NCBI RefSeq assembly: GCF_011927765.1
Contig: NZ_JAATJG010000002.1
Location: 1 to 64,000 of the forward strand
Reading direction: 5' to 3'
Length of the DNA stretch: 64,000 nt
Source: Wenyingzhuangia aestuarii
GTDB lineage: Bacteria; Bacteroidota; Bacteroidia; Flavobacteriales; Flavobacteriaceae
The notes under the pieces were generated by a model. That model made no database searches and had not been told where the DNA came from. It worked only from the letters and a program-made list of their open reading frames with translations. This document shows positions 131-34,768 of the stretch, in pieces. Positions within the stretch are counted from its first letter, which is position 1. Every line of letters starts with the position of its first letter. Made by a program: the position numbers and the translations under genes.

Positions 131-544
131 TTAATTATAAACTTGTTCTTCTACAATACTAATATTAGTATAATTAGTAATAGTACCGTTATTGTCTATA
201 TTTAAAGATCCAGTACCTGTGGTTTTATCTCCAGTTATAGTATAGATGCTACTTTCATCTCCATCTGTTTTGGTAACTACAATAGTATATGTTGTATCGT
301 CAGAACTGTCTGTGTAGTTAGTGGTGTTGTATTTGTTTAATCGGGTAGTTGTTTGGTACTCTATAAGCAGAGTTTTAGATTGATAAACGTTTATTTTTTC
401 TAAACCACTACCAGTTATATTACTTAAGGTGTACACTTTTACCAAATCAATATCAGGAGTTCCTTCAAAAATAGATTCTTTAGAGCAACTACCTAGTAAA
501 ATGGCAAAGCAAAAAAGAGTGATTGTTTTTAGTATATTTTTCAT
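131..544 (-). CDS. Small lipoprotein of cassette 1, unknown function
   Basis: A 137-aa protein with a lipoprotein signal (hydrophobic stretch ending LLGSC, Cys20). I know no named family for it. The mature part starts with an LVKVYTL segment and ends in EEQVYN. Both features recur in the small lipoproteins at 24192-24923 (LVPVYSA, EKEIYN) and 32143-32829 (LVPVYTI, ETEVYN). The body is rich in Thr, Asn and Asp and looks beta-stranded. It is the last gene of the leftward SusC-SusD-lipoprotein operon and is separated from the gene before it by a perfect hairpin. It is the shortest of the three relatives and lacks about 100 residues of their middle. A surface accessory role in glycan uptake is inferred from position only. 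Confidence 0.75.
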   Translation of the reverse strand: MKNILKTITLFCFAILLGSCSKESIFEGTPDIDLVKVYTLSNITGSGLEKINVYQSKTLLIEYQTTTRLNKYNTTNYTDSSDDTTYTIVVTKTDGDESSIYTITGDKTTGTGSLNIDNNGTITNYTNISIVEEQVYN

Positions 545-560: not shown

Positions 561-594
561 ATCGCTCTTGTAGTTTTTAAGTAACAAGAGCGAT
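561..594 (-). promoter_or_regulatory. Intercistronic hairpin before the small lipoprotein (cassette 1)
   Basis: The arms ATCGCTCTTGT and ACAAGAGCGAT (minus-strand reading) pair perfectly over 11 bp with a 12-nt loop. It lies in the 60-nt spacer ahead of the small lipoprotein gene. On the sense strand it is followed by TAAAAAAG and the start codon, not a T-tract. Hairpins of different sequence occupy the same position in cassettes 2 and 3. Confidence 0.7.
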
Positions 595-604: not shown

Positions 605-2326
605 TTAAGGTCTTGTTTCTATTTTAATTAAAGAGAAATCATCAATGTACATTTCTTGAGCACCTGTAACTCCTGCGTTTAATGGAGGATGAATTCTAAA
701 TGCCCATCTAGAGTTAGATTCGGTAATGTCTTCTGGGAATGTAATTTCTTTTTCTATTAATTGCCAGCTACCTCTTTCTACATTTTCTATGTCCCAAACT
801 TGTTGTAAAAATACAGGTTTGTTAATTTCTGTTCTTATTGCTTTTAGTGTGTTTCCAGGTTCTAAGAAGACTCTGTAAGATGCTTTATAAGTTCCTGCAG
901 GTATAGGATCTGGTTTTGCAAAAGCAAACCCCCACAAGTTAATTCCAGGAAGTGGATTTGCATCTGTAGATTTAAAATGCATAGAAGCTTCTCCTAGAAA
1001 TGATTTACTTGTTGTTCTTTCGTAATAACCATCTGTGTTACTACCATCTACTTTATTTCCGTTTCCAATAAAATAATCTAGAGCAAAAGCATTGTTAATA
1101 GCCGGATGTGAGGTTTCAAAACTAGCCCAACCGTTTCCAGGTAAAACATTAGGTTCAAAATATGGAGTTACCGTTATAGGAGTTGTAAAATCTTCTAAGG
1201 GTCTTTCATCAGATGAGGTAATTGTTCCTCCTGCATAGTTTACAGTAATTACATCCGAATTATAAATAGGCTCGCTAAGAGTTAATTCAATATAAGTGGC
1301 ATCTGCTTCGCTAACTTTTGCATTGCTAACAGAAATGTTTTGGTTAAAAGCTCCGTTGGTTACATTTACGGTAAAGAAACTTTCTTGACTTGTAAAAGGA
1401 GTTAATTCTCCAGAAACTTGAAAACGCAAGACTTCGTCTTTGGTTTCTTTAATTTGTCCATTAATAGCAAAAGGTTGTGATGATTTAATAACCTTAACTT
1501 TTAAAGGAATAATTTTAGTAGCAGAAGCACTAGGATAATTTACACCGTTAGAGACTCCTCTATTGGCGGTTATGGTTCCGGCATCAAACGTTCCTAATTT
1601 AAAAAATTTAATAGTTGCTTCTTTAGCATTATTGGTTATAGGACTTCCGTTTGGAATTTCCCATCTTCTGCTAGTAGGTCTACCTTCAGTAGTTTGATCA
1701 AAATAGGTTAAAGAGCTACCTGCTTCTACCTCAACAGTAGGCCATGAATCTTTGTTTTTAGTACTTGTAAGTTCATCAGCAGTAATCGCTATTTTTTCTA
1801 CACCGTCTTGTAAAATTTTAAAATCAGGCTTTATGTGTCCATATACATCAAAAGTAAATGTAGTATCTATTACATGTAAATTTCCTACTTGTTTAGAAGT
1901 AAAAGTTCCTAAACTTGTTTTGTTACTAACAGGAGCATCGTAAGTGTTAAACAATCTTATTTTACTGTAGCCCTTTTTTCTAAAAAAGACATGAGCTTTA
2001 GTGTTTTTAGTAACAGTATCATTGTTAATAATAAATAATGGAAGAGAATCAGAAGCTGTAAATCTTTCTTTTAAAAAGTAATTTCCTTTTTCAATAATCC
2101 ATCTGTGTTCTTTTTGACCTTGAGATAAGTCTAAAAAACTAATATGGGTGTCAATGTTTATAGAAAATCGATCATCACCATTTACATTGGGATTAAAACC
2201 AATAATCCAAGAGGTGTCGTTAATTGTATCAGGTGCTGTATAATCAGCGTATTCTTGAGTACAACTTACTACTGTACAAAGTAGTAATGTACCTAGTATT
2301 ATTTGTTGTATGAATTTATTTTTCAT
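605..2326 (-). CDS. Surface glycan-binding-type lipoprotein, cassette 1
   Basis: A 573-aa lipoprotein (Cys22 after a hydrophobic signal) encoded directly after SusD. It has weak but clear homologues at 22473 and 30247. Shared landmarks in order are an N-terminal segment with FLDLSQG and WIIEKG, a middle segment with EAGSSLTYFD and GRPTSRRWE, an Ig-like segment with the pattern IELTLSEPIYNSDVITV, and a C-terminal jelly-roll-like domain ending MYIDDFSLI, as in CBM4-type modules. The position matches surface glycan-binding proteins (SusE/F-like) of known SusCD operons. Ligand binding is inferred from context and the C-terminal fold pattern. No catalytic motif is visible. Confidence 0.75.
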   Translation of the reverse strand: MKNKFIQQIILGTLLLCTVVSCTQEYADYTAPDTINDTSWIIGFNPNVNGDDRFSINIDTHISFLDLSQGQKEHRWIIEKGNYFLKERFTASDSLPLFIINNDTVTKNTKAHVFFRKKGYSKIRLFNTYDAPVSNKTSLGTFTSKQVGNLHVIDTTFTFDVYGHIKPDFKILQDGVEKIAITADELTSTKNKDSWPTVEVEAGSSLTYFDQTTEGRPTSRRWEIPNGSPITNNAKEATIKFFKLGTFDAGTITANRGVSNGVNYPSASATKIIPLKVKVIKSSQPFAINGQIKETKDEVLRFQVSGELTPFTSQESFFTVNVTNGAFNQNISVSNAKVSEADATYIELTLSEPIYNSDVITVNYAGGTITSSDERPLEDFTTPITVTPYFEPNVLPGNGWASFETSHPAINNAFALDYFIGNGNKVDGSNTDGYYERTTSKSFLGEASMHFKSTDANPLPGINLWGFAFAKPDPIPAGTYKASYRVFLEPGNTLKAIRTEINKPVFLQQVWDIENVERGSWQLIEKEITFPEDITESNSRWAFRIHPPLNAGVTGAQEMYIDDFSLIKIETRP

Positions 2327-2358: not shown

Positions 2359-4158
2359 TTAGTCTATGTTACCGTTTGCGTTCTTTTCTCTTGATGGAAT
2401 AGGGTAGTAGCTATTTAAGGCATCTGTATAATTACTGTTTGCCAAATCATATTCATAATCTACTACTTCTGCTTGATTTATATCTGCAGGAGCCGTGTCT
2501 GTTAAAGAAGGGAAGTTTTGTTTTGTTTTAGCTACTCCTTCGTTATCTGTATAACTATAATTAACTCCATAAAGTGTTAAGTCTGATAGTTCTTGCAAAC
2601 GTTCTTTAAATCCGTAGTTATCAGATTTTTTCCATCTAATAAAATCAATCCAACGCATAGCATGTCCTTCTGCACCTAATTCTAATGGTTTTTCTATTTT
2701 CATAAAACGATCCATAAGGCTAGTTTGTGTGTATACTTCTTCATCATAAGTTCTACTAGTATCTCCATTTGATGGACCTAATAAAACCAATCCCCATCTT
2801 TTTCTAATTTGGTTAATTAAACCTAGAGCTTCATCAATTTTATTGGTTTTAATTTTGCATTCTGCTAGGTTTAAAATGGCTTCTGCTAATCTAATTACTG
2901 TTAAGTTTTTTGCAGAATAAGCGACTCCGTTTGGTATGTCTCTTTCAGCAGCTACAATATCATGATTGGTGTATTTTTTCCAGTAAGCAAATCCTCCCCA
3001 GGCTCTACCATTAAAAGCAGGTCCTGTAACTTCTGTAGTAGGTGCTTGGTAATATAAAGTTTGATAATCTTCTACAATAGCCATCATTGATGATGCTCTA
3101 AGTGGTACATTTCTTAACTTTTTTGTGTTGTCTGCAGGATCTATATAATAATTCCTGTCATCTAAAGGATCTTTAGGTTCGTTTTTAAATTCGTATGCAA
3201 TCCATGCTGGTCCTGCTGCAGTTGTAGAGGTGTTACCACGAGTGTATAATGCCAATATACTGGTACCTGTTCCTCCATCCCAAGGAGCAAAATTTAAATT
3301 GATATTATCTGCTGTAAAATTTACTTCAAAAATAGATTCATCATTAAATTCTCCAGCGGTTGTAAACATTAAATCTAAGTCTGTTACAAGCTCGTATCCA
3401 TGGTTATTAATTACGTCTTCGTAATAAGCACTAGCTTCTGTATACTTTAGTTCGTTTAGGTAAGAGTTTCCTAAAACCATAGCAGCAGCACCTGCAGTAA
3501 CTTTAGAAATATCATTATCTGGATATTCTCCTTTTTTATAAAGGTTAGCATAGGCATATTCTAAATCTTCTCTAATAAAAGTTAAAACATCAGCAGCCGA
3601 TGATAATGGTAGTTCATACTCCTCTCTATTGGTAGGAACTTTATTTCTTATAATAATACTACCATTGTTATAAGTAGTGTATAGGTAATAGTGGAACAGT
3701 CCTCTAAAAAAACGAGCTTGAGCCATTTGAGATGTCCACTCTTCTTGGTTAATATCTGTATTGGTTTGAATTCTTTCTAAAGCTTCTATTACTTGATTTG
3801 CTCTAAAAATTCCTAAATAGTTAGACTGCCATTTTTCATTTACTTCATCAGAAGTTTCTGAATAGGTATGAATGTAAAAAGGAGAAGGAGATGCAGGAGT
3901 AGGTCTGTTTAAAGACGGGTATCCCATATCTGATCTTAACATTTCTTCTGGAATGTTAAATGTAGAAGGGTCGTATAAAGTTTTGTATACAGAATACAAT
4001 CCTTTTTGTGTTTCTCCTAAATCTCTCCAAAAGTTGTCTGTTGTAGCTTCGTTAGGGTTTTCTTGTTCTAAGAAATCTCTTTTCATTTCATCTGTACACG
4101 AGGTCATAAAACCAAGAGCAAGCGTGAATATGGTAATTTTAAATATGATATTTTTCAT
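2359..4158 (-). CDS. SusD-like glycan-binding lipoprotein, cassette 1 (RagB/SusD family)
   Basis: A 599-aa lipoprotein with lipobox FMTSC (Cys21). SusD-family landmarks are the QARFFRGLFHYYL helix, the VIRLAEAILNLAECK helix, the NQIRKRWGL segment and the EGHAMRWIDFIRW motif near the C-terminus. The family caps the paired SusC barrel at the cell surface and captures oligosaccharides. It begins 12 nt after the SusC stop and is plainly co-transcribed. Relatives at 20642 and 28489 share these motifs, as expected for parallel systems working on related glycans. Confidence 0.93.
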   Translation of the reverse strand: MKNIIFKITIFTLALGFMTSCTDEMKRDFLEQENPNEATTDNFWRDLGETQKGLYSVYKTLYDPSTFNIPEEMLRSDMGYPSLNRPTPASPSPFYIHTYSETSDEVNEKWQSNYLGIFRANQVIEALERIQTNTDINQEEWTSQMAQARFFRGLFHYYLYTTYNNGSIIIRNKVPTNREEYELPLSSAADVLTFIREDLEYAYANLYKKGEYPDNDISKVTAGAAAMVLGNSYLNELKYTEASAYYEDVINNHGYELVTDLDLMFTTAGEFNDESIFEVNFTADNINLNFAPWDGGTGTSILALYTRGNTSTTAAGPAWIAYEFKNEPKDPLDDRNYYIDPADNTKKLRNVPLRASSMMAIVEDYQTLYYQAPTTEVTGPAFNGRAWGGFAYWKKYTNHDIVAAERDIPNGVAYSAKNLTVIRLAEAILNLAECKIKTNKIDEALGLINQIRKRWGLVLLGPSNGDTSRTYDEEVYTQTSLMDRFMKIEKPLELGAEGHAMRWIDFIRWKKSDNYGFKERLQELSDLTLYGVNYSYTDNEGVAKTKQNFPSLTDTAPADINQAEVVDYEYDLANSNYTDALNSYYPIPSREKNANGNID

Positions 4159-20623: not shown

Positions 20624-20641
20624 TAAATAAAAACAATTATC

Positions 20642-22459
20642 ATGAAATATTTGACTTTTAAAAACATTATAGTGGTTTTTATGTTATTTGGTTTATTGTC
20701 ATGTTCAGACGAATCATTAACAGAAATAAACCCAAACCAACCACAGGTACGTTGGGATAATTTATCGGATACGCAAAAAGGTTTAAACTCAGTTTATAAT
20801 TCTTTATTAGATGAAAATTTACTAGGAGTTATGCAAGAAGCTTGGAGATCGGATATGGGATATCCAGGATTTGGTAGGCCAACCCCTACAAACCAAGGGA
20901 ATTTACCTTACTATTATCAAACATATACAAATAACAATGAATTTATATCTGCTAAATGGGATGCATGTTATGCAACTATTTATTATGCAAATCAAGTACT
21001 AGAAGGTCTAGAAGGATTAGAAGCTACTTTAACAGAAGATTCATTAGAGTCTTGGACAGCACAAGTGGCACAAGCTAGATTCTTTAGAGGATTAATGCAT
21101 TTCTATTTACACTCTACATACAATAACGGTAATGTAATTATTAGAAAAGAAATTCCTAATGTTACAACTGGTTTTGGTAAAGAGCTATCATCATCTGCAG
21201 AGGTAAGAGACTTTTTTAGAGAAGACTTATTATATGCTTATGAGAATTTACCTGAAGAATATGATAAAGATTATTTAGGAAGTGCAACAAAATGGGCAGC
21301 AGCTACAGCTTTAGGAACATCATACTTATATGAGGCTACAGATGGTCCAAGTGCAACTGGAGACTACTCACAGGCTATGACGTATTTTGAAGATGTTATA
21401 GATAATGGCCCTTTTGAATTAGTAACGGATCCTTCTTTAATTTTTACTCCAGCAGGAGAGTTTAATAAGGAATCTATATTTGAATTAGCCTACAATACAG
21501 AGCATAGACAGAGTTTAAAAGTTTTTGATGCAGGAAAAATGTCTAATCAATTATCTTTTAATTCAACAGGATCGTCAGGTTTCTTTATGCCCGTTTGGAT
21601 GATATACGCTTACAAATCAGAAGAATTAGATTTAGCAGATTCTAGAAACGTATATACAGAACCAGGAACAGGAGGTACCATTATAAGACCAGTATCTTTA
21701 AGAGCATCTTCTATGGCAGCTATTGTAAATGATGAATTAACAGATTTTGGAGGTAAAAAAACAACAGAAGGTATTAAAATTCAAAATGGAGGTTTTGGAT
21801 TTGGTTACTATAAAAAATATATTGAATTTAATAACACCGATCCTAGAGGAACAAGAAGTGCGGGTTCTAATGTTGTTGTAAACAGATTGGCAGAAGTGTA
21901 TTTAATGCAGGCTGAATGTTTAATTCAAACTGGAGATTTAAATGGAGCTTTAAAATTAATCAATAAAATAAGACATAGATGGGCTCTTCAACTAATAGGA
22001 ATGCCAGATACTGATTGGCCTGATGCAACTTTTGAATCTGACAAAGATAATGATGGGGTTATTGATGTGGACTATGTTGATTATACTCAAGAAACACTAA
22101 TGAATAGGTTAATGTATGTTGAAAAACCATTAGAATTATCTGTAGAAGGTCATGCAATACGTTGGATAGATTTAAGAAGATGGGGGATTATAAAGGAAAA
22201 CTTTAACAGGTTATCAAATGCAACGTATTACGCTCAAAATTATGATTATGATAAACGAGATGCTGATACTGGAGAAAAAACAGGTAAAACAGGAACTATT
22301 AAAAACGGAGAAATTTTAAATGTAAACCCTGGAACTGCTACAGAGTTAAATATCATAGATTATGAATATGATGTTGCAGCAGATAATTATACTCCAGCAT
22401 TAAATAATTATTACCCTATTCCTTTAAATGAGATTTTAAGAAATCCATTATTAAACTAA
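20642..22459 (+). CDS. SusD-like glycan-binding lipoprotein, cassette 2
   Basis: A 605-aa lipoprotein with lipobox GLLSC (Cys21). Family landmarks are QARFFRGLMHFYLHSTYNNG, VVNRLAEVYLMQAEC, INKIRHRWAL and EGHAIRWIDLRRWG. The start lies 18 nt after the SusC stop. A segment near residues 460-475 (DKDNDGVIDVDY) looks like a calcium-binding loop of the DxDxDG type, which the SusDs of cassettes 1 and 3 lack. It acts at the cell surface as the lid of the SusC transporter. Its closest relative in the window is the SusD at 2359, judging from shared segments such as WRSDMGYP...GRPTP. Confidence 0.93.
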   Translation: MKYLTFKNIIVVFMLFGLLSCSDESLTEINPNQPQVRWDNLSDTQKGLNSVYNSLLDENLLGVMQEAWRSDMGYPGFGRPTPTNQGNLPYYYQTYTNNNEFISAKWDACYATIYYANQVLEGLEGLEATLTEDSLESWTAQVAQARFFRGLMHFYLHSTYNNGNVIIRKEIPNVTTGFGKELSSSAEVRDFFREDLLYAYENLPEEYDKDYLGSATKWAAATALGTSYLYEATDGPSATGDYSQAMTYFEDVIDNGPFELVTDPSLIFTPAGEFNKESIFELAYNTEHRQSLKVFDAGKMSNQLSFNSTGSSGFFMPVWMIYAYKSEELDLADSRNVYTEPGTGGTIIRPVSLRASSMAAIVNDELTDFGGKKTTEGIKIQNGGFGFGYYKKYIEFNNTDPRGTRSAGSNVVVNRLAEVYLMQAECLIQTGDLNGALKLINKIRHRWALQLIGMPDTDWPDATFESDKDNDGVIDVDYVDYTQETLMNRLMYVEKPLELSVEGHAIRWIDLRRWGIIKENFNRLSNATYYAQNYDYDKRDADTGEKTGKTGTIKNGEILNVNPGTATELNIIDYEYDVAADNYTPALNNYYPIPLNEILRNPLLN

Positions 22460-22472
22460 TAATTGAAGCAAG

Positions 22473-24134
22473 ATGAAAAATATTAAAAAAATAATACAAA
22501 TTATTTCAATCGTAGCATTTCTTGTAGGTTGTAATAATGATGAAGTAAATTCTTTAGCAAAATTTAATGATGCTACTTGGTCAACCTCCGAATATAATTA
22601 TGCAAATACAACTTCAGATATAAATTTTGGAATAAATAAAGGAGATTATATTTCATTTATAGATTTGTCTCAAAATGCAATATCTCACGAATGGATTATC
22701 GAAAAAGAGGACAAATTTTTAAATCCAAATTTTAAAACAAGTGATAAGAATTTAATTCCTTTTATCAATAATGATTTAGGCACTGTGTCAACATCTAAAC
22801 CTGCACATATATTGTTTTTAAAACCAGGAATTAATGAGGTTAAAATGGTAAATACTTTTGATAGTCCTGTAACGTTTAATGGAAAAGTAAAAATTGAATC
22901 TGTTAAAAAAGGAGATGTGTATGAACTTAAGAATATTTGGAAAGTAGATGTTTATGATAGTTTAAAACCTGCAGTCAAAATTTCTAAAGAAGATGACTTA
23001 GGAGTTAAAACGGAGTTGTACAACTCTGCAAAAGAGCTGATACCTGCAGATGGAGTTATTAATATAGAAGCTGGTGAATCTTTAATTTATGAAGATATTA
23101 CTACTATTGGACGTCCAAATGCAAATAGTTGGAAATCGCCAGGATCAAATCAAAAGACAGCTTCTGGTACAAAAAATGTTGTTTTTGATTATTTAAAATT
23201 AGGAGAATTTGAAGCTGGATCTCTATCTGTAAGTAGAGATGGAGATGATAAAACAGTTCCTAAAGCAGAGTCACAAGTATTAGATATTCCCTTAAAAATT
23301 ATAGTAAACAAATCATCTAAGCCTTTTAATATAATAGAAGAAAGTGTTGTTAGATTGGAGTCTAATAAAATTAGTTTTGATGTTAGTGGAGAATTAAAGG
23401 CTTTTACAGATCAAGAAGCTAACTTTAATGTACACGTAACAAATACTGCAGCTAGTTTTGATAGTGATATTACAGTTACTAAAGCTCAAGTAAGCTCTAC
23501 AAATAAAGCAACTATAGAATTAACTTTAGCTTCGGATATTTATAATACGGACGATATTAAAGTTTCTTATATTGTAGGTGCTACAACCATTGTATCTGCA
23601 GATGAAAGAGATTTACTTGCTTTTACAGATCAAACTGTACGTTTTACAGATGAACTTTTGGATTCAGATTATTATGGTTTTGAATTAGGAGGATCGGAGT
23701 GGTTTATACAACACCCAGATCAATGGTCTTACAGTTCTTCTTTTGCAAATACAGGCACGAATAGTTTAAAATTTAGTGAAGCTGATGTTTCTTCAATGGA
23801 TAATAAAATTAAAGTACAAGGAACAAGTGCTACAGAACTTAAAATTGTAGCAGGTACCTATAATTTTTCTATAAATGTATGGATTGATGTTGATTCTGAT
23901 TTGAATACGCTGCTAACAAATTTTCAAGGAACTACTTTTAAATCTGTTAAATGGGATTTAACAGGAGTAAAAAAGGGAGAATGGGTTAAGTTAAACCAAG
24001 AAGTTACTTTAGCTGATTACGATAATACAAATAATGATAAATTAGTTTTTCAAATTAATAAGGTAGATGTTATTAGTACATCTGCAACTATGTATGTAGA
24101 TGATATATCTATGGTACCTGTAGAACAAAGATAA
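22473..24134 (+). CDS. Surface glycan-binding-type lipoprotein, cassette 2
   Basis: A 553-aa lipoprotein (Cys20 after FLVG). It shares with the proteins at 605 and 30247 the ordered segments FIDLSQN/EWIIEKE, EAGESLIYED-TTIGRPNAN, an Ig-like block with IELTLASDIYNTDDIKVSY and DERDL, and a C-terminal beta-sandwich ending MYVDDISMV. It follows SusD by 13 nt. By position it corresponds to SusE/F-like surface glycan-binding proteins, which bind the polymer outside the cell. Binding specificity is unknown; low identity among the three copies would allow different ligands. No enzyme motif is seen. Confidence 0.75.
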   Translation: MKNIKKIIQIISIVAFLVGCNNDEVNSLAKFNDATWSTSEYNYANTTSDINFGINKGDYISFIDLSQNAISHEWIIEKEDKFLNPNFKTSDKNLIPFINNDLGTVSTSKPAHILFLKPGINEVKMVNTFDSPVTFNGKVKIESVKKGDVYELKNIWKVDVYDSLKPAVKISKEDDLGVKTELYNSAKELIPADGVINIEAGESLIYEDITTIGRPNANSWKSPGSNQKTASGTKNVVFDYLKLGEFEAGSLSVSRDGDDKTVPKAESQVLDIPLKIIVNKSSKPFNIIEESVVRLESNKISFDVSGELKAFTDQEANFNVHVTNTAASFDSDITVTKAQVSSTNKATIELTLASDIYNTDDIKVSYIVGATTIVSADERDLLAFTDQTVRFTDELLDSDYYGFELGGSEWFIQHPDQWSYSSSFANTGTNSLKFSEADVSSMDNKIKVQGTSATELKIVAGTYNFSINVWIDVDSDLNTLLTNFQGTTFKSVKWDLTGVKKGEWVKLNQEVTLADYDNTNNDKLVFQINKVDVISTSATMYVDDISMVPVEQR

Positions 24135-24144
24135 AATTAAACAA

Positions 24145-24177
24145 AACCTCTAAACTATTTAATATGGTTTAGAGGTT
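24145..24177 (+). promoter_or_regulatory. Intercistronic hairpin before the small lipoprotein (cassette 2)
   Basis: AACCTCTAAAC and GTTTAGAGGTT pair perfectly over 11 bp with an 11-nt loop in the 57-nt spacer between the two lipoprotein genes. CTAAAAAA and the start codon follow within 15 nt. The position, arm length and loop size match the hairpins at 561-594 and 32089-32126, although the arm sequences differ. Confidence 0.75.
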
Positions 24178-24191
24178 CTAAAAAATATAAA

Positions 24192-24923
24192 ATGAAACAA
24201 GCAATCAAATATATAAATTTAATAGCTTTAGTGTTTTTAACACTTAGTTGTGAAAAAGAAACAGGATGGGAAAAAGAAAATTTAGAATTAGTACCTGTTT
24301 ATAGTGCTTTTGATATATCTTCAGAATTAGATATCAATCCAACTTTTGATGTAGAACAAGACCCCGCAATAGCTACTGATGAAGAAAAATTCTTGAAAAA
24401 CGAATACGACAATAGGTTTGTACCATATAAATTACAGTTGTTTAAGAATAAAGATTTAACAATTATTTTTAATACAACTTCAACAGCAAGTAAATTTGAA
24501 GTACCTTACATTGAAGATACTACAGATGCTGATGTATATGATATTAAATTGACCACAGAAGTTACCAATCCTATTAATAAAGGAGGAGTTACTGGTACAG
24601 AAATGATAACAAACAATTATTCTCTTTATTTTAACAGAACGGCAATGTCAAATGCTGTTACGGCTGATGTAGCTATAGAAGGATTGATGTTAAACACAAT
24701 AAAGGTAACTACAACAACAACTGTTCGAAATACAACAAGTTCTGATACCGAAGGAGTAGTAGTAGAAACTAAATATGAAACACCTAATGTTATTTCGCTA
24801 GTAACCAAAACAGAAACAAGTATTGATACAGAAACAAACAAAACAACTGTAACGATTACAAAAACGATAGATGAAACATTTAAGTATAAATTATTATTTG
24901 TAGAAAAAGAAATTTATAATTAA
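24192..24923 (+). CDS. Small lipoprotein of cassette 2, unknown function
   Basis: A 243-aa lipoprotein (Cys20 in LTLSC). It shares the LVPVYS segment soon after the lipid anchor and the C-terminal EKEIYN with the small lipoproteins at 131 and 32143. The second half is very rich in Thr and Val (runs such as VTTTTTVRNTT), suggesting an extended beta-structure. I do not recognise a named family. It is the last gene of cassette 2, followed by two strong terminators. Its constant position suggests it belongs to the uptake complex at the cell surface, but nothing in the sequence gives a biochemical role. Confidence 0.75.
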   Translation: MKQAIKYINLIALVFLTLSCEKETGWEKENLELVPVYSAFDISSELDINPTFDVEQDPAIATDEEKFLKNEYDNRFVPYKLQLFKNKDLTIIFNTTSTASKFEVPYIEDTTDADVYDIKLTTEVTNPINKGGVTGTEMITNNYSLYFNRTAMSNAVTADVAIEGLMLNTIKVTTTTTVRNTTSSDTEGVVVETKYETPNVISLVTKTETSIDTETNKTTVTITKTIDETFKYKLLFVEKEIYN

Positions 24924-24945
24924 TAACATAATACATAAAACAATT

Positions 24946-24976
24946 AAAAGCTCTATTATTTATAATAGAGCTTTTT
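24946..24976 (+). terminator. First terminator after cassette 2
   Basis: AAAAGCTCTATTAT and ATAATAGAGCTTTT form a 14-bp stem with a 2-nt nominal loop and a short T-run. Confidence 0.85.
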
Positions 24977-25011
24977 AGTTTAAGGACATATTGTTTTATA
25001 AAAAGAATGTT

Positions 25012-25051
25012 AAAACAGGATATAGCACAAGGTGCTATATCCTGTTTTTTT
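25012..25051 (+). terminator. Second terminator after cassette 2
   Basis: AAACAGGATATAGCAC and GTGCTATATCCTGTTT pair around AAG and lead into a seven-T tract. With the hairpin 40 bp upstream it insulates cassette 2 from cassette 3, so cassette 3 should have its own promoter. Confidence 0.9.
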
Positions 25052-25409
25052 ATACCAAATAATCATATTTGTAAGATGTGTTCTTTGTAATTTGTTGTTT
25101 TATAGTATGAAAGTGATTTTATGTACGGATGAATACAAATTATTTACAGAAGAGTATGTTATAAACATAGATAGCTTTTAATATTGTGAATATGATAATA
25201 TTTTATGTTTAATATAGTGTTTATTTCGTTTTTAGTGCTTTTTTATTTTTAAATTGTTAAATAAATAAGCGCTTTTGTGTTAATAACTCTAAATATGTAA
25301 ATCTGAATTTAATTAAAACTATGAACAAAAATCTAACAAAAAAAGAAATCTTCTTGCGGAGTTTCATTTACTAACCAAATTAAAACTATAAAAACTAAAA
25401 CTAATTTAA
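25052..25409 (+). promoter_or_regulatory. Upstream regulatory region of cassette 3
   Basis: This 358-base AT-rich gap without a gene contains TACAAATTATTTACAGA at 25134-25150 and ends in the leader segment shared with cassette 2. A GTAATTTGT segment near 25087 resembles a shortened inverted half of the motif. The promoter itself could not be placed with confidence. Confidence 0.5.
25134..25150 (+). promoter_or_regulatory. Candidate HTCS-binding motif, cassette 3
   Basis: This site is identical over 17 nt to the one at 17228-17244 and lies at nearly the same distance from the SusC start (276 against 285 bp). Confidence 0.5.
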
Positions 25410-25512
25410 ATGAAGAAAAATAGAACTATAAATGTAAGAACAGTCTTAAGAAAAGTATTTCTTATTCTGTTTTTATCTGTAGTGTGTTTTCAAGGAAAAG
25501 CATACGCTCAAG
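25388..25512 (+). repeat. Leader/signal-peptide segment duplicated at 17491-17615 (copy 2)
   Basis: Copy 2 of the 125-bp near-identical segment. It covers the 22 bases before the SusC start and the codons through the end of the signal peptide. Confidence 0.8.
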
Positions 25513-28478
25513 GAACCGTATCAGGAGTCGTAACTAGCTCTGGTGATGGATTACCTTTAATTGGAGCAACAATACAAAAACTAGGTACTAAGGAGGTAAC
25601 GACAACAGATTTTGATGGTCAATATGTAATCAAGGCAAAAAAAGGAGATGTTTTGCAATTTACTTATTTGGGAATGACTCCTAAAAGTACAACAATTACA
25701 GGTAATGTGCTTAATGTAATTTTAGATCCAAGTCAAGAGCAATTAGATGAAGTTGTTGTTGTTGGATATGGAACTCAAAAGAAAAAAGAAGTAACAGGAG
25801 CTGTAGCACAAGTAAAATCTGAAGAAATAGAACAATTTGTAACGACAGATGTGTCTTCAGCTTTACAAGGTCAAGTTACAGGGGTAAATGTAACTGCAGC
25901 AAGTGGAGAGCCAGGAGAAACCGCTAGTATACAAATAAGAGGGGTAACTTCATTAATTGGTTCCAATGAGCCGTTATGGGTTGTAGATGGAATAGCTCAA
26001 CAAGGTAATCCAGGGTTAAGTCCAAATGAAATTGAAACTATTGATATTTTAAAAGATGCAGCCTCTGCAGCTATTTATGGTACAGAAGGAGCAGGAGGAG
26101 TTATTTTGGTAACTACCAAGCAAGGAAAAGAAGGAAAAATGAGCATTACCCTAAACTCAAAATATGGTATTCAAGATTTAGGGAAAGGAATTTCTTTAAT
26201 GAATGCTAAAGATGAACTATTTTTTGGTTTAACACAGTTAGATAATGGTGCTTCTACTTTTGTTCCAGGTCCTATTAGAACTCCAGAGTGGTTAAATAAT
26301 GATAATACTTTTAATGATTATGTATTGGTAGAACATGCAGCTACGCAACAACACACTTTAAATGTTTCTGGAGGAACTAAAGAGTTTTCTTACAACGCAG
26401 TAGGTGGTTATTTTAATCAAGAAGGAACGTTGATAAATTCTGGTTTTCAAAGAGTAAATGGACGTATTTCTGCAAACTATAATAAAAAGAATTGGAAGGT
26501 AAGATCTAGTATCGCTTTTACTACAGAAAAAAGAGATAGAGTAGGAAACAACTTAATAACAAATGCACAACGTTATTCACCACTATATCCAATTGTAGAT
26601 CCTAGTTCAGATGTTGTATACTCTACAGAAAGTGGTGATGGGGGAGTAAGAACTCCATTGGAATTGTTGGCACAGGCATTAAAAAAGAAAGACAATAGTA
26701 CTAGTGAGAGAATTAATGCAAGTATAGGAGTTACAAGACAATTAACAAAAGATTTAAGTATGTCTGCTACTTTGGGTACAGCTATTACCAATACTTATAG
26801 AGATCAGTTTTTACCTCAATATTCAATTGTTTATTTAAACGGAGATCCTACAGAAACAGATCCAACGAAAAGTAATGTAACTACATCTGCATCTAGAAGA
26901 TCTACATTATCAGGAGATATAGGACTTAGCTATAAGAAAAAAATTGAGGATCATAATTTTGGAGCACAAGCAATTTTTGCAATCAAAGAAGAAGGATATA
27001 GAGGTTTTTCAGCAAGAAAAGAAGGTGTCCTAAATAATGATATTCGTGTGTTAGACGGTGCAAGTATCAATCCTGTAGCCGATTCAGAAATTTATTATAA
27101 TAGTACACAAGTTGGTTTTGTTGGTAGAGTAACCTACGGATACAAAGACAAATATTTGTTATCAGGAGTGGTAAGAAGAGATGGTTCTTCCAAATTTAGC
27201 CCAGAGAATCAATGGGGGATATTTCCATCAATTACTATGGGGTGGAACGTATCTGATGAACCTTTTTGGAAAGACTTAAAAGGAACCATTAATAATTTTA
27301 AAATTAGAGCGGGTAGAGGTACTGTAGGAAACAACCGATTTGGAAATTATGAATATCAAAGTACCATACGTACCAATGCGAATTATATTTTTGATCCTAC
27401 AGACAATCAATTAACATTTGGATCTGCTGTATATACCTATGCAAACCCTCAGGTAAAATGGGAGACAAAAACAGAAACAAATATTGGTTTTGATATGAGT
27501 TTATGGAGAAACAAATTGATTGTTACTGCAGATGTTTATAAATCTAGTAATGAAGATATGCTGTTTCCTGTAAGAACTCCAAGTTCTGCAGGTGCTTATG
27601 ACGGAAATAATTTAAATAGTATTTTAAATGTAGGAAACATGACCAATCAAGGTTTGGAAATAGCTTTAAAATATAGAACAAATATTCAAAAAAGTAAATT
27701 ATCTACAAGTTTAGTGTTTACTAGAAATACAAATGAGGTAACTAGTACAGCAGGACAATCAACTATTTATAACACGCAATCTAACATAAATTCTACTCCA
27801 ATTACTGTTTTTGCAGAAGGATACGAAGCAGGAGCTTATTTCTTGTACAAAACTAACGGAGCTATTAATAGCGAAGAGCGTTTGGCAGCTTATCAAGAAA
27901 TTAAGCCTGATGCAAAAATGGGGGATATTGAAATTGTTGATTATAATAAAAATGGTAAAATCGATAATGATGATAGGCATTATGCAGGAAGTGCATTGCC
28001 TGATTTTGAATTAGGTTGGAATATGCAATGGACCTATAAAGGTTTTGATTTGTCTATGAACTGGTACGCTTCTGTAGGGTCAGAAATTATAAATGGTAAT
28101 AAAATTGAAGCTTATACCAAAGGTAGGCACAAAGATTTATTAGACATGTGGTCTAAAGATAATCCAACATCTAATATTCCAATTTTAAGAGATTTTGGTA
28201 CTAATAACTATTTACCAAATAACGATTATTGGGTTGAAAGTGGAGACTATATACGTTTAAAACTGGCAACATTAGGTTATAATTTTTCACAAACAACTTG
28301 TGAAGATATAGGTCTAAGTAGCTTAAGATTATTTTTTACAGCTCAAAACCCATTGACCATTACAAAATATACAGGTTATGATCCAGAGGTTGGAGGAAAT
28401 GTAGCAAGAAGAGGTTTAGATTTATCTAGATATCCATTAGCTTCATTGTACACTGTTGGATTAAATGTTAAATTTTAA
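25410..28478 (+). CDS. SusC-like TonB-dependent outer-membrane transporter, cassette 3
   Basis: A 1022-aa protein. The signal peptide ends KAYAQ and is nearly identical to that of the SusC at 17513. A carboxypeptidase-regulatory-like domain, a TonB-box region LDEVVVVGYG, a plug with LWVVDG and ILKDAASAAIYGTEGAGGV, and a barrel ending NVKF follow. Past the first 120 residues it is the most divergent of the three SusCs (for example NPGLSPNEIETIDILKD in place of the PRIPP plug segment), so it may carry a different oligosaccharide. It pairs with the SusD 10 nt downstream. Confidence 0.95.
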   Translation: MKKNRTINVRTVLRKVFLILFLSVVCFQGKAYAQGTVSGVVTSSGDGLPLIGATIQKLGTKEVTTTDFDGQYVIKAKKGDVLQFTYLGMTPKSTTITGNVLNVILDPSQEQLDEVVVVGYGTQKKKEVTGAVAQVKSEEIEQFVTTDVSSALQGQVTGVNVTAASGEPGETASIQIRGVTSLIGSNEPLWVVDGIAQQGNPGLSPNEIETIDILKDAASAAIYGTEGAGGVILVTTKQGKEGKMSITLNSKYGIQDLGKGISLMNAKDELFFGLTQLDNGASTFVPGPIRTPEWLNNDNTFNDYVLVEHAATQQHTLNVSGGTKEFSYNAVGGYFNQEGTLINSGFQRVNGRISANYNKKNWKVRSSIAFTTEKRDRVGNNLITNAQRYSPLYPIVDPSSDVVYSTESGDGGVRTPLELLAQALKKKDNSTSERINASIGVTRQLTKDLSMSATLGTAITNTYRDQFLPQYSIVYLNGDPTETDPTKSNVTTSASRRSTLSGDIGLSYKKKIEDHNFGAQAIFAIKEEGYRGFSARKEGVLNNDIRVLDGASINPVADSEIYYNSTQVGFVGRVTYGYKDKYLLSGVVRRDGSSKFSPENQWGIFPSITMGWNVSDEPFWKDLKGTINNFKIRAGRGTVGNNRFGNYEYQSTIRTNANYIFDPTDNQLTFGSAVYTYANPQVKWETKTETNIGFDMSLWRNKLIVTADVYKSSNEDMLFPVRTPSSAGAYDGNNLNSILNVGNMTNQGLEIALKYRTNIQKSKLSTSLVFTRNTNEVTSTAGQSTIYNTQSNINSTPITVFAEGYEAGAYFLYKTNGAINSEERLAAYQEIKPDAKMGDIEIVDYNKNGKIDNDDRHYAGSALPDFELGWNMQWTYKGFDLSMNWYASVGSEIINGNKIEAYTKGRHKDLLDMWSKDNPTSNIPILRDFGTNNYLPNNDYWVESGDYIRLKLATLGYNFSQTTCEDIGLSSLRLFFTAQNPLTITKYTGYDPEVGGNVARRGLDLSRYPLASLYTVGLNVKF

Positions 28479-28488
28479 ACGAAACAAG

Positions 28489-30240
28489 ATGAAAAGATAT
28501 ATAAAATACATTATCCCTTTTTTGGTGATAACAACGACGTTGCAATCTTGTGACGATTACTTAGAAGAAATCAATCCAAATGAAGTTTCATCAGAACTAT
28601 ATTGGCAGGATTTAGAGGATTCTAATGAAAACTTAACATCTGTTTATAACGGATTGTTAAATCAATACATTTGGTCTGTTGACAATGAGGCTCTTAGAGG
28701 TGATATAGCATTTTCAAACTTGCGAAGCAGACAAAACTCAGAAACCTATGCATGGCACGCACAAGCATTTACAAATACGGTAGATAATCATTATTTTAAA
28801 AGCTGGGCAGGAATGTATCGTGTAATTTGGAGAGCAAACCAAGTTATAACAGGGTTAAACGGTATGTCAGAAACTTTTAAAAGTCAAGAAGCATGGACCA
28901 CACAAATGGCAGAGGCTCGTTTTTTAAGAGGGTTAATGCATTTTTACTTACACTCTAACTACAATCAAGGAGAAATAATCATTAGAGATGAAATACCTGA
29001 GAGTTTAGAGGATTATTCTAAACCAACATCATCATCTGCCAAAGTTTTAGAGTTTTTTAGAAAAGATTTTGAATATGCTTATGATAATTTACCTGCAACT
29101 CAAAATCAACCTTCTAGAGTTAGTAAGGGATTGGCAGCCATGATTTTTGCCAAAAGTTATTTATATACAGAAGAATACGACAAGGCAGTTCCTTTGTTAA
29201 AAGATGTAATAGAAGGACCTTACGGATTTGAATTACTTAAAGGAGAAGCTGTAAAAACGTTGTTTACACATGCAGGAGATTTTAACAAAGAAACGTTATT
29301 CGAAATAAATTATACAGATGTACATCAACGTTTGATTAACTCTAATGGGGATAGTTGGGATGAAGAGGCTTATACTACAAGATGGGCAAGGTATACAACA
29401 CCAGCAAATAAAGGAGGATCAATAGGAGGTCCAAAATACTTTAACCCAACAGCCTGGTTAACTTTTGAATATTCTAACGAACCTATGAATTTAAATGATT
29501 CTAGAAACTTTAAAGAAGGAAATCAATTAAGAAGTGTGCCTCTAAGATGTGCGCAAATGATTCAGGTAGTTAACGATGAGGAGTCTAGCTATTATGGAAA
29601 AACTCCTGCTTATGAAGACGTTAGTTTTAGTAAGGATGTTTTTGCCTATTTTAAAAAATTAACCAATCATGATGTGGTTAGTCACGAAGATGAAATGTTG
29701 TCTACAGCGTGGCAGTCTGGTAAAAACTTAGTGGTGTATCGTTTAGCAGATGCTTACTTAATGTTGGCAGAGTGTTATATTGAACAAGATAATATTACAG
29801 AAGCGTTAAAATACATTAACGAGATTAGAAGCCGTTGGGGATTATTGCTATTAGGTGCCGATGATGGTTCTAGTTCTTATGATGATGTAGCTTATGATAA
29901 AACAACATTAATGGAACACTTAATGTATATAGAAAGGCCTTTAGAGTTGTCTTTAGAAGGGTATGCAGAAAGAGCTATTGATTTAAGAAGATGGGGAATA
30001 ACCAAACAACGTTTTACAGATTTGGCATCAAGAGATTACCAGGTAGTAGATTATTCTTTTACAAAAGAAGATGGAACTACAGGTAAAGGAAGCAAAATAC
30101 AGACGGGTGTAGGACCAACTGCTAACAACAACACTCCTGAAATTGAGTTTAATGATGCAGCAGCTAATTATTTAGAATCTGTACATGCCTACTTGCCATT
30201 ACCTAACGAAGAAACGTTGTATAACCAACAAGTAAACTAA
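28489..30240 (+). CDS. SusD-like glycan-binding lipoprotein, cassette 3
   Basis: A 583-aa lipoprotein. The ATG at 28489 gives a standard signal peptide with lipobox TLQSC (Cys21). A longer reading from 28465 would add eight residues, overlap SusC and spoil the signal. SusD landmarks are EARFLRGLMHFYLHSNYNQG, VVYRLADAYLMLAECY, INEIRSRWGLLLLG and EGYAERAIDLRRWG. It caps the SusC at 25410 at the cell surface. It differs from the other two SusDs in the N-terminal ligand-side loops, in line with its divergent SusC partner. Confidence 0.93.
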   Translation: MKRYIKYIIPFLVITTTLQSCDDYLEEINPNEVSSELYWQDLEDSNENLTSVYNGLLNQYIWSVDNEALRGDIAFSNLRSRQNSETYAWHAQAFTNTVDNHYFKSWAGMYRVIWRANQVITGLNGMSETFKSQEAWTTQMAEARFLRGLMHFYLHSNYNQGEIIIRDEIPESLEDYSKPTSSSAKVLEFFRKDFEYAYDNLPATQNQPSRVSKGLAAMIFAKSYLYTEEYDKAVPLLKDVIEGPYGFELLKGEAVKTLFTHAGDFNKETLFEINYTDVHQRLINSNGDSWDEEAYTTRWARYTTPANKGGSIGGPKYFNPTAWLTFEYSNEPMNLNDSRNFKEGNQLRSVPLRCAQMIQVVNDEESSYYGKTPAYEDVSFSKDVFAYFKKLTNHDVVSHEDEMLSTAWQSGKNLVVYRLADAYLMLAECYIEQDNITEALKYINEIRSRWGLLLLGADDGSSSYDDVAYDKTTLMEHLMYIERPLELSLEGYAERAIDLRRWGITKQRFTDLASRDYQVVDYSFTKEDGTTGKGSKIQTGVGPTANNNTPEIEFNDAAANYLESVHAYLPLPNEETLYNQQVN

Positions 30241-30246
30241 GAGATT

Positions 30247-32076
30247 ATGAAGAAAAATATAAAATTAATTACAGGACTATTATGTGTGCTGTTGGCTTTT
30301 ACAACCAGCTGTTCAGACGAAGACGTATCTGTATATGGAGATTTAAACGGAGATTATTCTAGTTTTCAATGGTACACAGGTGGAAATAGAGAAACTTATA
30401 GAGAATCAAATAAAGAAATTAATATCAATCAATATGTTGGTTTATTTGATGTATCAGTAGGTGAGAAAAATAGAGAATGGACAATTCCTAGTTCAGCTAA
30501 ATTTTTAAACCAAAAGTTTACTGAAAGCGATACAATTTATAGCTCTTTTGTTATTCCAAATTCAGGAACCAAATCAGCAGATGAATTGGTAAACGTTTAC
30601 TTTCCCGAAGCTGGAGAATTTGAAGTGAAATTAAGAACAGAGTTTAAAGAACCAGTAACGTATACTAGGTCTTTTGAAGTAGGAGGAGAGTTGGTCTCAA
30701 AATCTATAACAAGCACAGTGGTTGATACTATTTTTAAAGTAAAGGTTTTTCCAGACCCTGTACCAACTTGTAAAGTTTACAAACAAAATTTTATAACCAA
30801 CCCCGAAGATCCTACGGGACCTACCATTGTAGATGAAGCAAATCCATATACTGAAATTTTATTTGTTGAGGAAGAAGATCAACCAAGTCTAGAAAATATT
30901 GATACTTGGGCTGAGGTGTCTATTGAAGCAGGAGAAAAATTAATGTTCGAAGATTTGTCAACTATTGGAGAGGTAGATGGAACTAGATGGACAACCAACG
31001 GAGGAAAACCCGAAGTTAGTTCTAAAGAAACAATAGAGGTAGCATATAATAAACTTACAGCAGATGATGAATATTATACAGCTCATTTTATATCAAGAAG
31101 AACAAGTGATGTAGGGCCTACTAAAGATATTGCTAAGTTAATCCCTTTAAAAATAAAGGTATTACCCTCTACTAAGCCATTTGCGTATAACGCAGGATTA
31201 AAAATATCAAAAGAAGGAATAATTAGTTTTCCTGTAACAGGAGAAGTAGAATTGTTTGATGGGCAAGAAGATAAATTTACAGTTAATGTTGTGAATACAG
31301 ATAGTGGATTTTATCAAAATATAGCTGTTTCCTCTGTGGCTTTAAATGCTGATGATGCAACAATTATAGAGTTAACATTAGCGGAGCAAGTATACAATAC
31401 AGATACGTTTACAATCTCGTATACAGATGCTAATGCAAAAGATACTGATGGAATTATTTCGGTAGACGGAAGATCATTAGAGAGTTTTGATCCTATAACC
31501 ACTACCATTAAAACATCAGAATATGAAGGAGTGATGAATATAACTGATTTTACAGGGTATGAATCTGAATATGGAGGTTCAGGAAATCAGTATAAGTTTG
31601 CTAACATGAATAAAGGAGTATATTTTGCTCAGCACAATGGTAACTCAGAAGCGGGACCATTGTATTATTGGAGAGATACAGAGTTAGCTTATGAAGGAAA
31701 TAGTTCTTTAAAATTTGAAACTCCAAGTACAGGTATCCCTAATTTAGCAAGATTACAAGGATCTGCATTTAAAACATTAAGTCCAATACCGGCAGGTAAA
31801 TTTATTCCAAGTGTATGGGTGTATATAGATCCAGCAACTACAATGTCTACAATACAATACAACTGTACAACAAATGTAGATGCTACTTTTAATTTTGATA
31901 TTAGCACTGTAGAAAAAGGAAAGTGGGTTCAATTAAACTTACCGGCTGTAGAGTTACCTGCCATAGCAGATGGTAGACTTGATATTAATATTACCAATGT
32001 AGATCAAGGTGCTACACAAGTTCAAAAGTTGTGGTTAGATAATTTTGATTTATTAATTGTTAACGACAGACCTTAA
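30247..32076 (+). CDS. Surface glycan-binding-type lipoprotein, cassette 3
   Basis: A 609-aa lipoprotein (Cys22 in FTTSC), the longest of the three homologues. Shared segments are GLFDVSVGEKNREWTI, EAGEKLMFEDLSTIGEVDGTRW, the Ig-like block IELTLAEQVYNTDTFTISY with DGRSLESF, and a C-terminal beta-sandwich ending LWLDNFDLL. It begins 6 nt after the SusD stop. Its presumed role is polymer or oligosaccharide binding at the surface for the cassette 3 transporter. Aromatic ligand-binding residues cannot be assigned without a structure. Confidence 0.75.
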   Translation: MKKNIKLITGLLCVLLAFTTSCSDEDVSVYGDLNGDYSSFQWYTGGNRETYRESNKEININQYVGLFDVSVGEKNREWTIPSSAKFLNQKFTESDTIYSSFVIPNSGTKSADELVNVYFPEAGEFEVKLRTEFKEPVTYTRSFEVGGELVSKSITSTVVDTIFKVKVFPDPVPTCKVYKQNFITNPEDPTGPTIVDEANPYTEILFVEEEDQPSLENIDTWAEVSIEAGEKLMFEDLSTIGEVDGTRWTTNGGKPEVSSKETIEVAYNKLTADDEYYTAHFISRRTSDVGPTKDIAKLIPLKIKVLPSTKPFAYNAGLKISKEGIISFPVTGEVELFDGQEDKFTVNVVNTDSGFYQNIAVSSVALNADDATIIELTLAEQVYNTDTFTISYTDANAKDTDGIISVDGRSLESFDPITTTIKTSEYEGVMNITDFTGYESEYGGSGNQYKFANMNKGVYFAQHNGNSEAGPLYYWRDTELAYEGNSSLKFETPSTGIPNLARLQGSAFKTLSPIPAGKFIPSVWVYIDPATTMSTIQYNCTTNVDATFNFDISTVEKGKWVQLNLPAVELPAIADGRLDINITNVDQGATQVQKLWLDNFDLLIVNDRP

Positions 32077-32088
32077 ACAAATTAATTA

Positions 32089-32126
32089 AACACCTCTTTT
32101 ATATTGATAAATTTAAAAGAGGTGTT
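32089..32126 (+). promoter_or_regulatory. Intercistronic hairpin before the small lipoprotein (cassette 3)
   Basis: AACACCTCTTTT and AAAAGAGGTGTT pair perfectly over 12 bp with a 14-nt loop. CTAAAAAAA and the start codon follow. It is the third example of the same placement after 561-594 and 24145-24177. Confidence 0.75.
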
Positions 32127-32142
32127 CTAAAAAAACAGAAAA

Positions 32143-32829
32143 ATGAAATACTTTTTAAATACATTAAAACTAATTTTAATATTACTTGTAGTTAGTTGTA
32201 CTACAGAGGAAAAAGAATTGCCTCAAGTGTCGTTGGTGCCTGTTTATACAATCAATGTGGCTGCACCTTCTAACGCAAATAATACATTGTCTGGTTATAA
32301 AAGTGTTACGGTTCCAACAACTATTAATATTTATAGAGAAACAGATTTAGTTATTCACTATCAAGAAGAAAATAACCCTGTAAATTATTATGTTTCGTCA
32401 ACAGACGAATCTACTGCTTTTGTACCTGCAGGAACAAATCCAGCTGTAGAAGGAAAATACAAAATTAATTATGTAATAGGTTCAGAAGAAAACACTACCA
32501 ATGCGGAAACAGGTACTGTTACTAAAACTAAAGAAACAACAACCTATGTAGTAGAAGCAAATAATACAGATATTGATGGAAATAAAATAAGTGTTAAAAA
32601 TAGTTTAGGCTTAACAATAAACCATACTAAAAAAGTAACTGTAATTGCAGATAAAGAAATAGGTGATGTTAATGTATCCGAAAGCATTACTCCTGCTACC
32701 GATAATGATGGTGAAATTACCACAGAAACTATTGTAGATGAGGTTAACAATACCACAACCACTATAATAACAACAGTTTCTAAAGCTGTTAGTTTAATTA
32801 CTTTAAAAGAAACAGAGGTATATAATTAA
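32143..32829 (+). CDS. Small lipoprotein of cassette 3, unknown function
   Basis: A 228-aa lipoprotein (Cys19 in LVVSC). The LVPVYTI segment near residue 30 and the terminal ETEVYN match the small lipoproteins at 131 and 24192. The middle has clusters of Thr, Asn and Glu and a run of valine/isoleucine-threonine alternation (TTTIITTV), which points to beta-strands. It is the last gene of cassette 3 and is followed by a strong terminator. No function can be assigned beyond membership of the uptake cassette. Confidence 0.75.
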   Translation: MKYFLNTLKLILILLVVSCTTEEKELPQVSLVPVYTINVAAPSNANNTLSGYKSVTVPTTINIYRETDLVIHYQEENNPVNYYVSSTDESTAFVPAGTNPAVEGKYKINYVIGSEENTTNAETGTVTKTKETTTYVVEANNTDIDGNKISVKNSLGLTINHTKKVTVIADKEIGDVNVSESITPATDNDGEITTETIVDEVNNTTTTIITTVSKAVSLITLKETEVYN

Positions 32830-32855
32830 GCGCTGTATATATATTTACAGACAAT

Positions 32856-32888
32856 AAAAAAGACAGCCATTTGGCTGTCTTTTTTTTA
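32856..32888. terminator. Bidirectional terminator between cassette 3 and the leftward acyltransferase
   Basis: AGACAGCC and GGCTGTCT form a perfect stem flanked by an A-run on the left and an eight-T run on the right, so it can end transcription from either side. Confidence 0.9.
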
Positions 32889-32959
32889 TTGTTTATAATC
32901 TTCTGATAGAGTTTAGTGTTATATGAATTAGGAAAGTATATGCAGCTAATTTAATTAGC

Positions 32960-33784: not shown

Positions 33785-33817
33785 TTGTATTTTAATTATT
33801 ATTTTTTTTGTGAGCAA

Positions 33818-33825
33818 CAAATTTA
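33818..33825 (-). promoter_or_regulatory. Putative -7 element of the acyltransferase gene
   Basis: The minus strand reads TAAATTTG, an exact TAnnTTTG match, 34 nt ahead of the chosen ATG at 33784. A clear -33 TTTG is not obvious. Confidence 0.4.
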
Positions 33826-33842
33826 CAATAATTTGTTCCTAA

Positions 33843-34472: not shown

Positions 34473-34492
34473 CTTTTATATACTTTAACTTC

Positions 34493-34768
34493 ATGAAATC
34501 TAAATATATAAAATTACTGCTAAGTATTCTGTTAGATGCACTAGGAATGCTATCTTATTTAGTTCCAGAATTAGGAGAGTTTATAGATGTGGTATGGGCT
34601 CCTTTGTCTTCTTTTATATTGATGAAATTATATAAAAACAAAGTGTCTAAATATATGGCTGTAGTTGGTTTTGTAGAAGAAATATTACCTTTTACAGATA
34701 TAGTCCCTACGTTTACAATTACTTATGTACTTAGTTTGTGTTTTGATAAAAAAGAAACTAAAATTTAA
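34493..34768 (+). CDS. Small conserved membrane protein, function unknown
   Basis: A 91-aa hydrophobic protein with about three membrane segments (residues 8-25, 30-45 and 62-83). It contains SYLVPELGEFIDVVWAPLSSFIL and FVEEILPFTDIVPTFTI, a symmetrical-looking pair of hairpins with acidic residues in the membrane-flanking loops. Similar short proteins occur in other Flavobacteriia, to my knowledge without a function. Its 3' end overlaps the leftward gene at 34758 by 11 bp. Confidence 0.65.
   Translation: MKSKYIKLLLSILLDALGMLSYLVPELGEFIDVVWAPLSSFILMKLYKNKVSKYMAVVGFVEEILPFTDIVPTFTITYVLSLCFDKKETKI

Follow-up and report, generated by a model that had tools for sequence, protein, structure and literature searches.

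Hairpins that stabilise messenger RNA between cistrons are familiar from Rhodobacter puf and from the REP elements of E. coli, where a 3'-protecting stem lies between genes with unequal transcript levels; REP elements share sequence. A second group is formed by the stem-loops of selective RNA processing and stabilisation (SRPS) at processing sites, of which 28 of 33 are without a U run and whose energies go from -6.6 to -31.8 kcal/mol, according to the available part of the report (PMC4423207). The accessible text of PMC8219983 gives as the rule for a stabiliser a U content of at most 5 and a poly(U) tail of at most 3. A study of E. coli reports that exonucleases halt at stable stem-loops once RNase E has cut, and that no motif is conserved there (PMC10667835).

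The window is the whole stretch of DNA that was analysed, 64,000 nucleotides of Wenyingzhuangia aestuarii. Wenyingzhuangia is a marine genus of Flavobacteriaceae, and SusCD operons are the route by which Bacteroidota take up complex sugars; to our knowledge, the unequal output of surface proteins from one such operon has been little studied. Three operons of the order SusC-SusD-lipoprotein-lipoprotein, here termed cassettes 1 to 3, lie in the window, and their lipoprotein genes are termed gene 3 and gene 4. The initial annotation had placed a perfect stem in the spacer before the fourth gene of each operon, and all three stems were found where it had put them, each between gene 3 and gene 4, with the stem of cassette 3, given as 12 bp, turning out to have 13 perfect pairs. 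The features are as follows.

131..544, minus strand: cassette 1 gene 4, small lipoprotein of 137 aa, a row of the gene 4 family alignment
561..594, minus strand: cassette 1 hairpin, 11 bp, loop 12, stems 584-594 and 561-571
605..2326, minus strand: cassette 1 gene 3, lipoprotein, SWM_repeat (Pfam PF13753, 8.1e-07)
2359..4158, minus strand: cassette 1 SusD-like protein (PF07980, 5.5e-21)
20642..22459, plus strand: cassette 2 SusD-like protein (PF07980 at 21467-22456, 7.6e-30)
22473..24134, plus strand: cassette 2 gene 3, lipoprotein, SWM_repeat match slightly under the Pfam cut-off
24145..24177, plus strand: cassette 2 hairpin, 11 bp perfect, loop 11
24178..24191, plus strand: A-rich leader CTAAAAAATATAAA before the cassette 2 gene 4 ATG, partly the usual Bacteroidota start-site signal
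24192..24923, plus strand: cassette 2 gene 4, small lipoprotein of 243 aa, gene 4 profile match 8.1e-32 (itself a row of the profile's alignment)
28465..30240, plus strand: cassette 3 SusD-like protein (PF07980, 6.2e-25)
30247..32076, plus strand: cassette 3 gene 3, lipoprotein (PF13753, 1.2e-06)
32089..32126, plus strand: cassette 3 hairpin, 13 perfect bp, loop 12
32143..32829, plus strand: cassette 3 gene 4, small lipoprotein of 228 aa, gene 4 profile match 6.5e-21 (itself a row of the profile's alignment)

SWM_repeat is the sole domain match of the gene 3 proteins, and identity to the cassette 2 copy is 32% for cassette 1 and 28% for cassette 3. Gene 4 is, judging from its sequence, a putative family of small lipoproteins that is undescribed. 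The family is weakly conserved in alignment, with an N-terminal LVPVY-like motif and a C-terminal YN in most members, and searches with 23 members against Pfam and NCBIfam gave nothing convincing (best E = 0.0035 and 0.0044). The cassette 1 protein has no Pfam match at 0.001. Strong matches to gene 4 (E < 1e-15) are present in at least 9 of 397 family genomes, with up to 9 candidates scored for each genome.

In cassettes 1, 2, and 3, respectively, 10, 10, and 12 nt separate the hairpin from the gene 3 stop codon, and 16, 14, and 16 nt separate it from the gene 4 ATG. The predicted fold energies of the hairpins are -15.4, -17.9, and -17.9 kcal/mol, with z = -6.72, -7.36, and -6.21, and these were equalled by 0 of 200 dinucleotide shuffles in each case, which excludes a chance origin for the three folds. 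RNAfold adds three pairs to the cassette 2 hairpin, making it 14 bp with a loop of 5. Each is therefore a stable predicted stem-loop within its operon, 3' of gene 3, with co-transcription suggested by gene order. The hairpins are followed by CTAAAAAA or TAAAAAAG and have no U-tract; the 8 nt 3' of the stems contain 1 T, and the coding strand bears out, for all three, the earlier observation that no T-tract stands behind the stem. The accompanying view that simple termination is unlikely also stands, given the missing T-tract and a distance of 14-16 nt to the ATG that leaves scant room for a new promoter. The -7 promoter motif of Bacteroidetes is TANNTTTG, and since it is absent between hairpin and ATG on the coding strand of the three cassettes, a promoter belonging to gene 4 was rejected. 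No Rfam family matched anywhere in the window at gathering score. Read on the opposite (plus) strand, the stem of cassette 1 has GAGTTTTTT behind it, a terminator-like arrangement that could serve an antisense transcript.

To see how these hairpins are distributed, junctions were collected by gene 3 and gene 4 profile searches in a sample of one genome per species, giving 73 junctions, 62 of them with a same-strand next gene and 26 with gene 4. Junctions whose gene 3 copies ended in an identical 100 nt entered the count a single time, and gene 3 matches without a downstream ORF within 600 nt of retrieved DNA were excluded. The 26 gene 3-gene 4 spacers fall into 7 of 10-29 nt, which are too short to hold a hairpin, 18 of 43-130 nt, and 1 of 354 nt (L058). 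A compact hairpin was defined as having at least 9 bp, a loop of at most 20, and at least 3 G-C pairs, the last two limits being imposed because helices with large loops had inflated the controls. By this definition, 14 of the 18 spacers of 43-130 nt, from Flavobacteriaceae and other Bacteroidia, contain a compact hairpin. It is T-less and ends 12-28 nt before the ATG (hereafter T-less near ATG) in 11 of the 18, and 3 of the 14 hairpins are T-rich (L021, L072, L081). Folding with z < -2 is found in 16 of the 18, the spacers of L019 and L056 folding no better than shuffles; L075 and L189 fold, yet fail the compact definition. Where gene 3 is followed by an unrelated gene, 11 of 18 spacers have a compact hairpin; of these 11 hairpins, 8 are T-rich and 1 is of the T-less near-ATG type. 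The expectation that other genomes would carry a hairpin at the equivalent position thus holds for most of the longer spacers and is not universal, and the hairpin is dispensable or replaceable, being absent from L019, from L056, and from the 7 of 26 junctions with short spacers. L019 is the W. heitensis orthologue of cassette 2; it is hairpinless and retains CAGAGGTT, which is like the 3' arm, possibly a half-lost hairpin.

Controls were taken from 700 kb of two Wenyingzhuangia genomes, amounting to 79 same-strand spacers of 43-130 nt. Compact hairpins occur in 26 of them (19 T-rich, 7 T-less), and the T-less near-ATG type in 2 of 79 as compared with 11 of 18 gene 3-gene 4 spacers (p = 2e-8, where the hairpin criteria were settled after the first lists and p-values are a guide). 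Removing the three window rows leaves 8 of 15 against 2 of 79 (p = 2e-6), and shuffled gene 3-gene 4 spacers have a compact hairpin of any kind in 38 of 1800. Outside the genus, the T-less near-ATG type is seen in 4 of 10 spacers versus 1 of 21 other spacers from relatives' loci, some of the latter being Wenyingzhuangia (p = 0.03). T-less hairpins at any position number 11 of 18 against 6 of 43 other spacers from relatives' loci and the G000 SusD loci (p = 4e-4). Because the junctions are related by descent, these Fisher values overstate independence. Foldedness by itself is not special to gene 3-gene 4 spacers. A score of z < -3 is reached by 12 of 18 gene 3-gene 4 spacers and by 13 of 53 controls of 43-100 nt, z < -2 together with few T 3' of the stem by 11 of 18 and 8 of 53, and a looser and noisier test using the longest helix of the minimum-energy fold gave 13 of 18 versus 15 of 79 (p = 3e-5). 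One control spacer of 72 nt in G000 (L088) contains a 16-bp T-less stem in the same arrangement, with 9 nt between stop codon and stem and 16 nt between stem and ATG.

The SusD neighbourhoods of three Wenyingzhuangia genomes (G000, G004, G002) supply 30 spacers of 43-130 nt, in which the T-less near-ATG hairpin is found at 4 of 5 gene 3-gene 4 junctions and at 3 of 25 others (L204, L214, L009; p = 0.006). The remainder of the 25 comprises 11 spacers without a compact hairpin, 7 with T-rich hairpins, and 4 with other T-less ones. This hairpin type is thus over-represented at the gene 3-gene 4 junction without being confined to it, and with just 3 of 25 other spacers having it, an element general to all SusCD operons was rejected. 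Elsewhere in the genus, hairpins with a T-tract stand behind SusD or gene 3 (L004, L006 with a longer gap, L007, L217, L220); from their sequences these look like internal terminators, in keeping with an expression step there. A contrast in conservation between T-tract and T-less hairpins was dropped because the L004 and L217 genes are 91-92% identical. Another stem, 45-60 nt before SusC, is found at L001 and L002 (G000) and at L212 and L223 (G002), having 11 bp and a 6-nt loop in the form ATCGGAAAATG-CTGCAA-CATTTCCCGAT, with two arms that co-vary between copies. At L008 and L014 (G000), it appears in the corresponding place as reverse-strand matches only, and the gene upstream of the pre-SusC stem is a candidate anti-sigma factor by size and order.

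The arms had been described as unrelated in sequence. That is accurate for most letters, but cassettes 2 and 3 have ACCTCT/AGAGGT in common (cassette 1 has GCTCTT), and of the 14 five-prime arms, 9 contain a CUCY core, which is seen in 2 of 26 control hairpins (p = 3e-4). The pyrimidine share of the five-prime arms is 65%, against 42% in controls. The core is missing in L017, L072, L076, L079, and L081, and in a MAFFT run on ten hairpins the arms did not come into alignment. The bias could stem from common descent or from recognition. Between L029 and L030, which are orthologues of cassette 1, 14 of 14 pairs are kept, two pairs being altered in both bases and one in a single base, while partners shifted by 1-3 columns pair in just 39-57% of cells. 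The built-in shuffle control for this compensation gave 129 of 500, which is not significant because only two sequences are compared. The initial annotation had proposed that the fold is kept as the sequence changes, and this is sustained by the compact hairpins in 14 of 18 spacers and by the compensatory changes in the one species pair. From these comparisons, the hairpin is real as a structural feature and appears to be maintained.

Our preferred reading, to which we give an even chance, is that each window hairpin acts, like the SRPS stem-loops, as a stabiliser between cistrons, placed where the SusC-SusD-gene-3 message ends on its 3' side within a polycistronic mRNA. Transcription would proceed through the hairpin into gene 4, RNase E/G or RNase Y would later cut the RNA within or upstream of gene 4, or Rho would release it, and 3' exonucleases such as PNPase would halt at the stem. 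The SusC-SusD-gene-3 message would then outlast that of gene 4, so that the core complex would be made in larger amounts than the small lipoprotein. The genome encodes RNase E/G, RNase Y, and PNPase. With the stem about 10 nt past the gene 3 stop, its fold should survive a ribosome that terminates there, and with 14-16 nt ahead of the gene 4 ATG, the start region stays open. Structure without conservation of sequence is what an SRPS element requires, so its presence here counts for a stabiliser, and by eye the three window hairpins fall within the U rule given in the available text of PMC8219983. A role as an RNA-stability or processing boundary, as suggested earlier, may be argued by analogy with the published SRPS stabiliser stem-loops, and it is from the same analogy that we infer the cutting, protection, and stoichiometry at the window hairpins. 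A stabiliser that works through structure alone would not be expected to show the bias toward CUCY in the arms.

The main rival, which we consider unlikely, is that the stem is a translation spacer or insulator. It would block pairing of the gene 3 tail with the gene 4 start and shorten the effective distance from stop to start, such that initiation with the stem folded resembles initiation at short-spacer junctions. Total spacer length differs between hairpin-bearing and hairpinless junctions (p = 0.006), whereas the spacer minus its hairpin has a median of 27 nt at the 14 junctions with hairpins and 25 nt at the 11 without (p = 0.74, omitting L058 at 354 nt). Any hairpin clearing both ribosomes would yield such equal spacing, however, and the hairpinless group includes L075 and L189, which fold outside the compact definition. 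The stems end 12-25 nt before the ATG and leave the A-rich initiation zone free, and for F. johnsoniae the accessible part of PMC6847099 reports that structure and A at -12/-13 tune translation. Against a general need for insulation, 72 of 79 ordinary spacers of 43-130 nt are without a T-less hairpin.

The trailing TAAAAAA had been taken as a shared part of the element, and TAAAAA is indeed enriched, at 12 of 26 gene 3-gene 4 junctions versus 14 of 86 operonic control genes (p = 0.003), but it is in part the ordinary start-site signal. Upstream A frequency is highest at -13 to -11 among 293 control genes, as compared with an enrichment of A at -14 to -11 given for F. johnsoniae start sites in the available text of PMC6847099. 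L068 and L190, both within the 12 junctions with TAAAAA, are hairpinless, and L084 and L019 likewise, so the A-run does not require the hairpin. Neither the initiation region nor the start codon lies inside a window stem. Sequestration of a Shine-Dalgarno sequence was rejected: AAGGAG or AGAGG occurs in some 3' arms, but by eye at 16-19 nt before the ATG, and the use of such sequences is rare in F. johnsoniae according to the accessible portions of PMC6847099 and PMC8710568.

Less probable still, and in our estimate quite improbable, is a weak internal terminator or pause site that reduces transcription into gene 4. Internal terminators with reduced U set the stoichiometry of ABC importers in Clostridia, as the available part of PMC9045158 describes, and T-rich hairpins make up 3 of 14 at gene 3-gene 4 junctions and 8 of 11 between gene 3 and unrelated next genes. 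The sequence following the window hairpins, with its lack of a U-tract, is against it. A terminator scan of 20000-35000 lists neither the cassette 2 nor the cassette 3 hairpin, though both may have escaped it through its loop limit of 8, and with the U-tract absent an intrinsic terminator on the coding strand was rejected.

We see a slight chance that the hairpin is a neutral or decaying relic, for example of former terminators minus their T-tracts. Its patchy presence, the arm-like remnant in L019 whose partner is gone, and the similar AATCCTCTCA stem that L004 and L217 carry with a T-tract are compatible with this, but maintenance is indicated by the compensatory changes, by the length of the stems in diverged species, and by their excess over controls. 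A bolder reading, for which we would also allow little, makes the CUCY/RGAG hairpin a junction-specific element of polysaccharide-utilisation loci (PULs) in Bacteroidota, T-less and kept by compensatory evolution between the SusCD core and the undescribed gene 4 family, through which a dedicated RNA-binding factor would set the composition of the surface uptake complex. Least probable of all is that an RNA-binding protein or a small RNA binds here, recognising the stem with its CUCY/RGAG core: the arm bias and the regulation of PULs by the global RNA-binding protein RbpB in Bacteroides (available text of PMC11697453) speak for it, but descent of paralogous junctions can account for the core, which five hairpins are without, the loops have no common sequence by eye, and Rfam has no match in the window at gathering score.

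Taken together, a T-less stem that stands clear of both ribosomes, with free sequence and kept structure, best fits a 3'-protective stabiliser, as judged by analogy. Among the literature matches listed, seen by title and the start of the abstract, none describes hairpins at the gene 3-gene 4 junction, and the window hairpins most likely add a further case of stabilising hairpins between cistrons, in a setting for which we found no description. Should they be stabilisers, SusCD systems would come under SRPS-type control as well, and natural variants are available in the 14 junctions with a hairpin and the 11 others compared, with different stems and hairpinless relatives.

In comparison with the known systems, REP elements share sequence, whereas the arms of the window hairpins mostly do not. 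The internal terminators of ABC importers in cellulolytic Clostridia are alike in being stem-loops within an operon behind the gene of an abundant binding protein, but they have a U-rich tract, though a reduced one, in the accessible text of PMC9045158, and the window hairpins have none. The SRPS stem-loops of the cip-cel operon of C. (Ruminiclostridium) cellulolyticum are, from the available parts of PMC4423207 and PMC8219983, alike in being mostly T-less and intergenic in an operon for polysaccharide degradation, and in lying at the 3' end of the upstream gene, with the window energies within the reported range. They differ in that cellulosomes are encoded there, while the hairpins described here are predicted from sequence, belong to Bacteroidota SusCD operons, were found at one type of junction, and have a CUCY bias in their arms.
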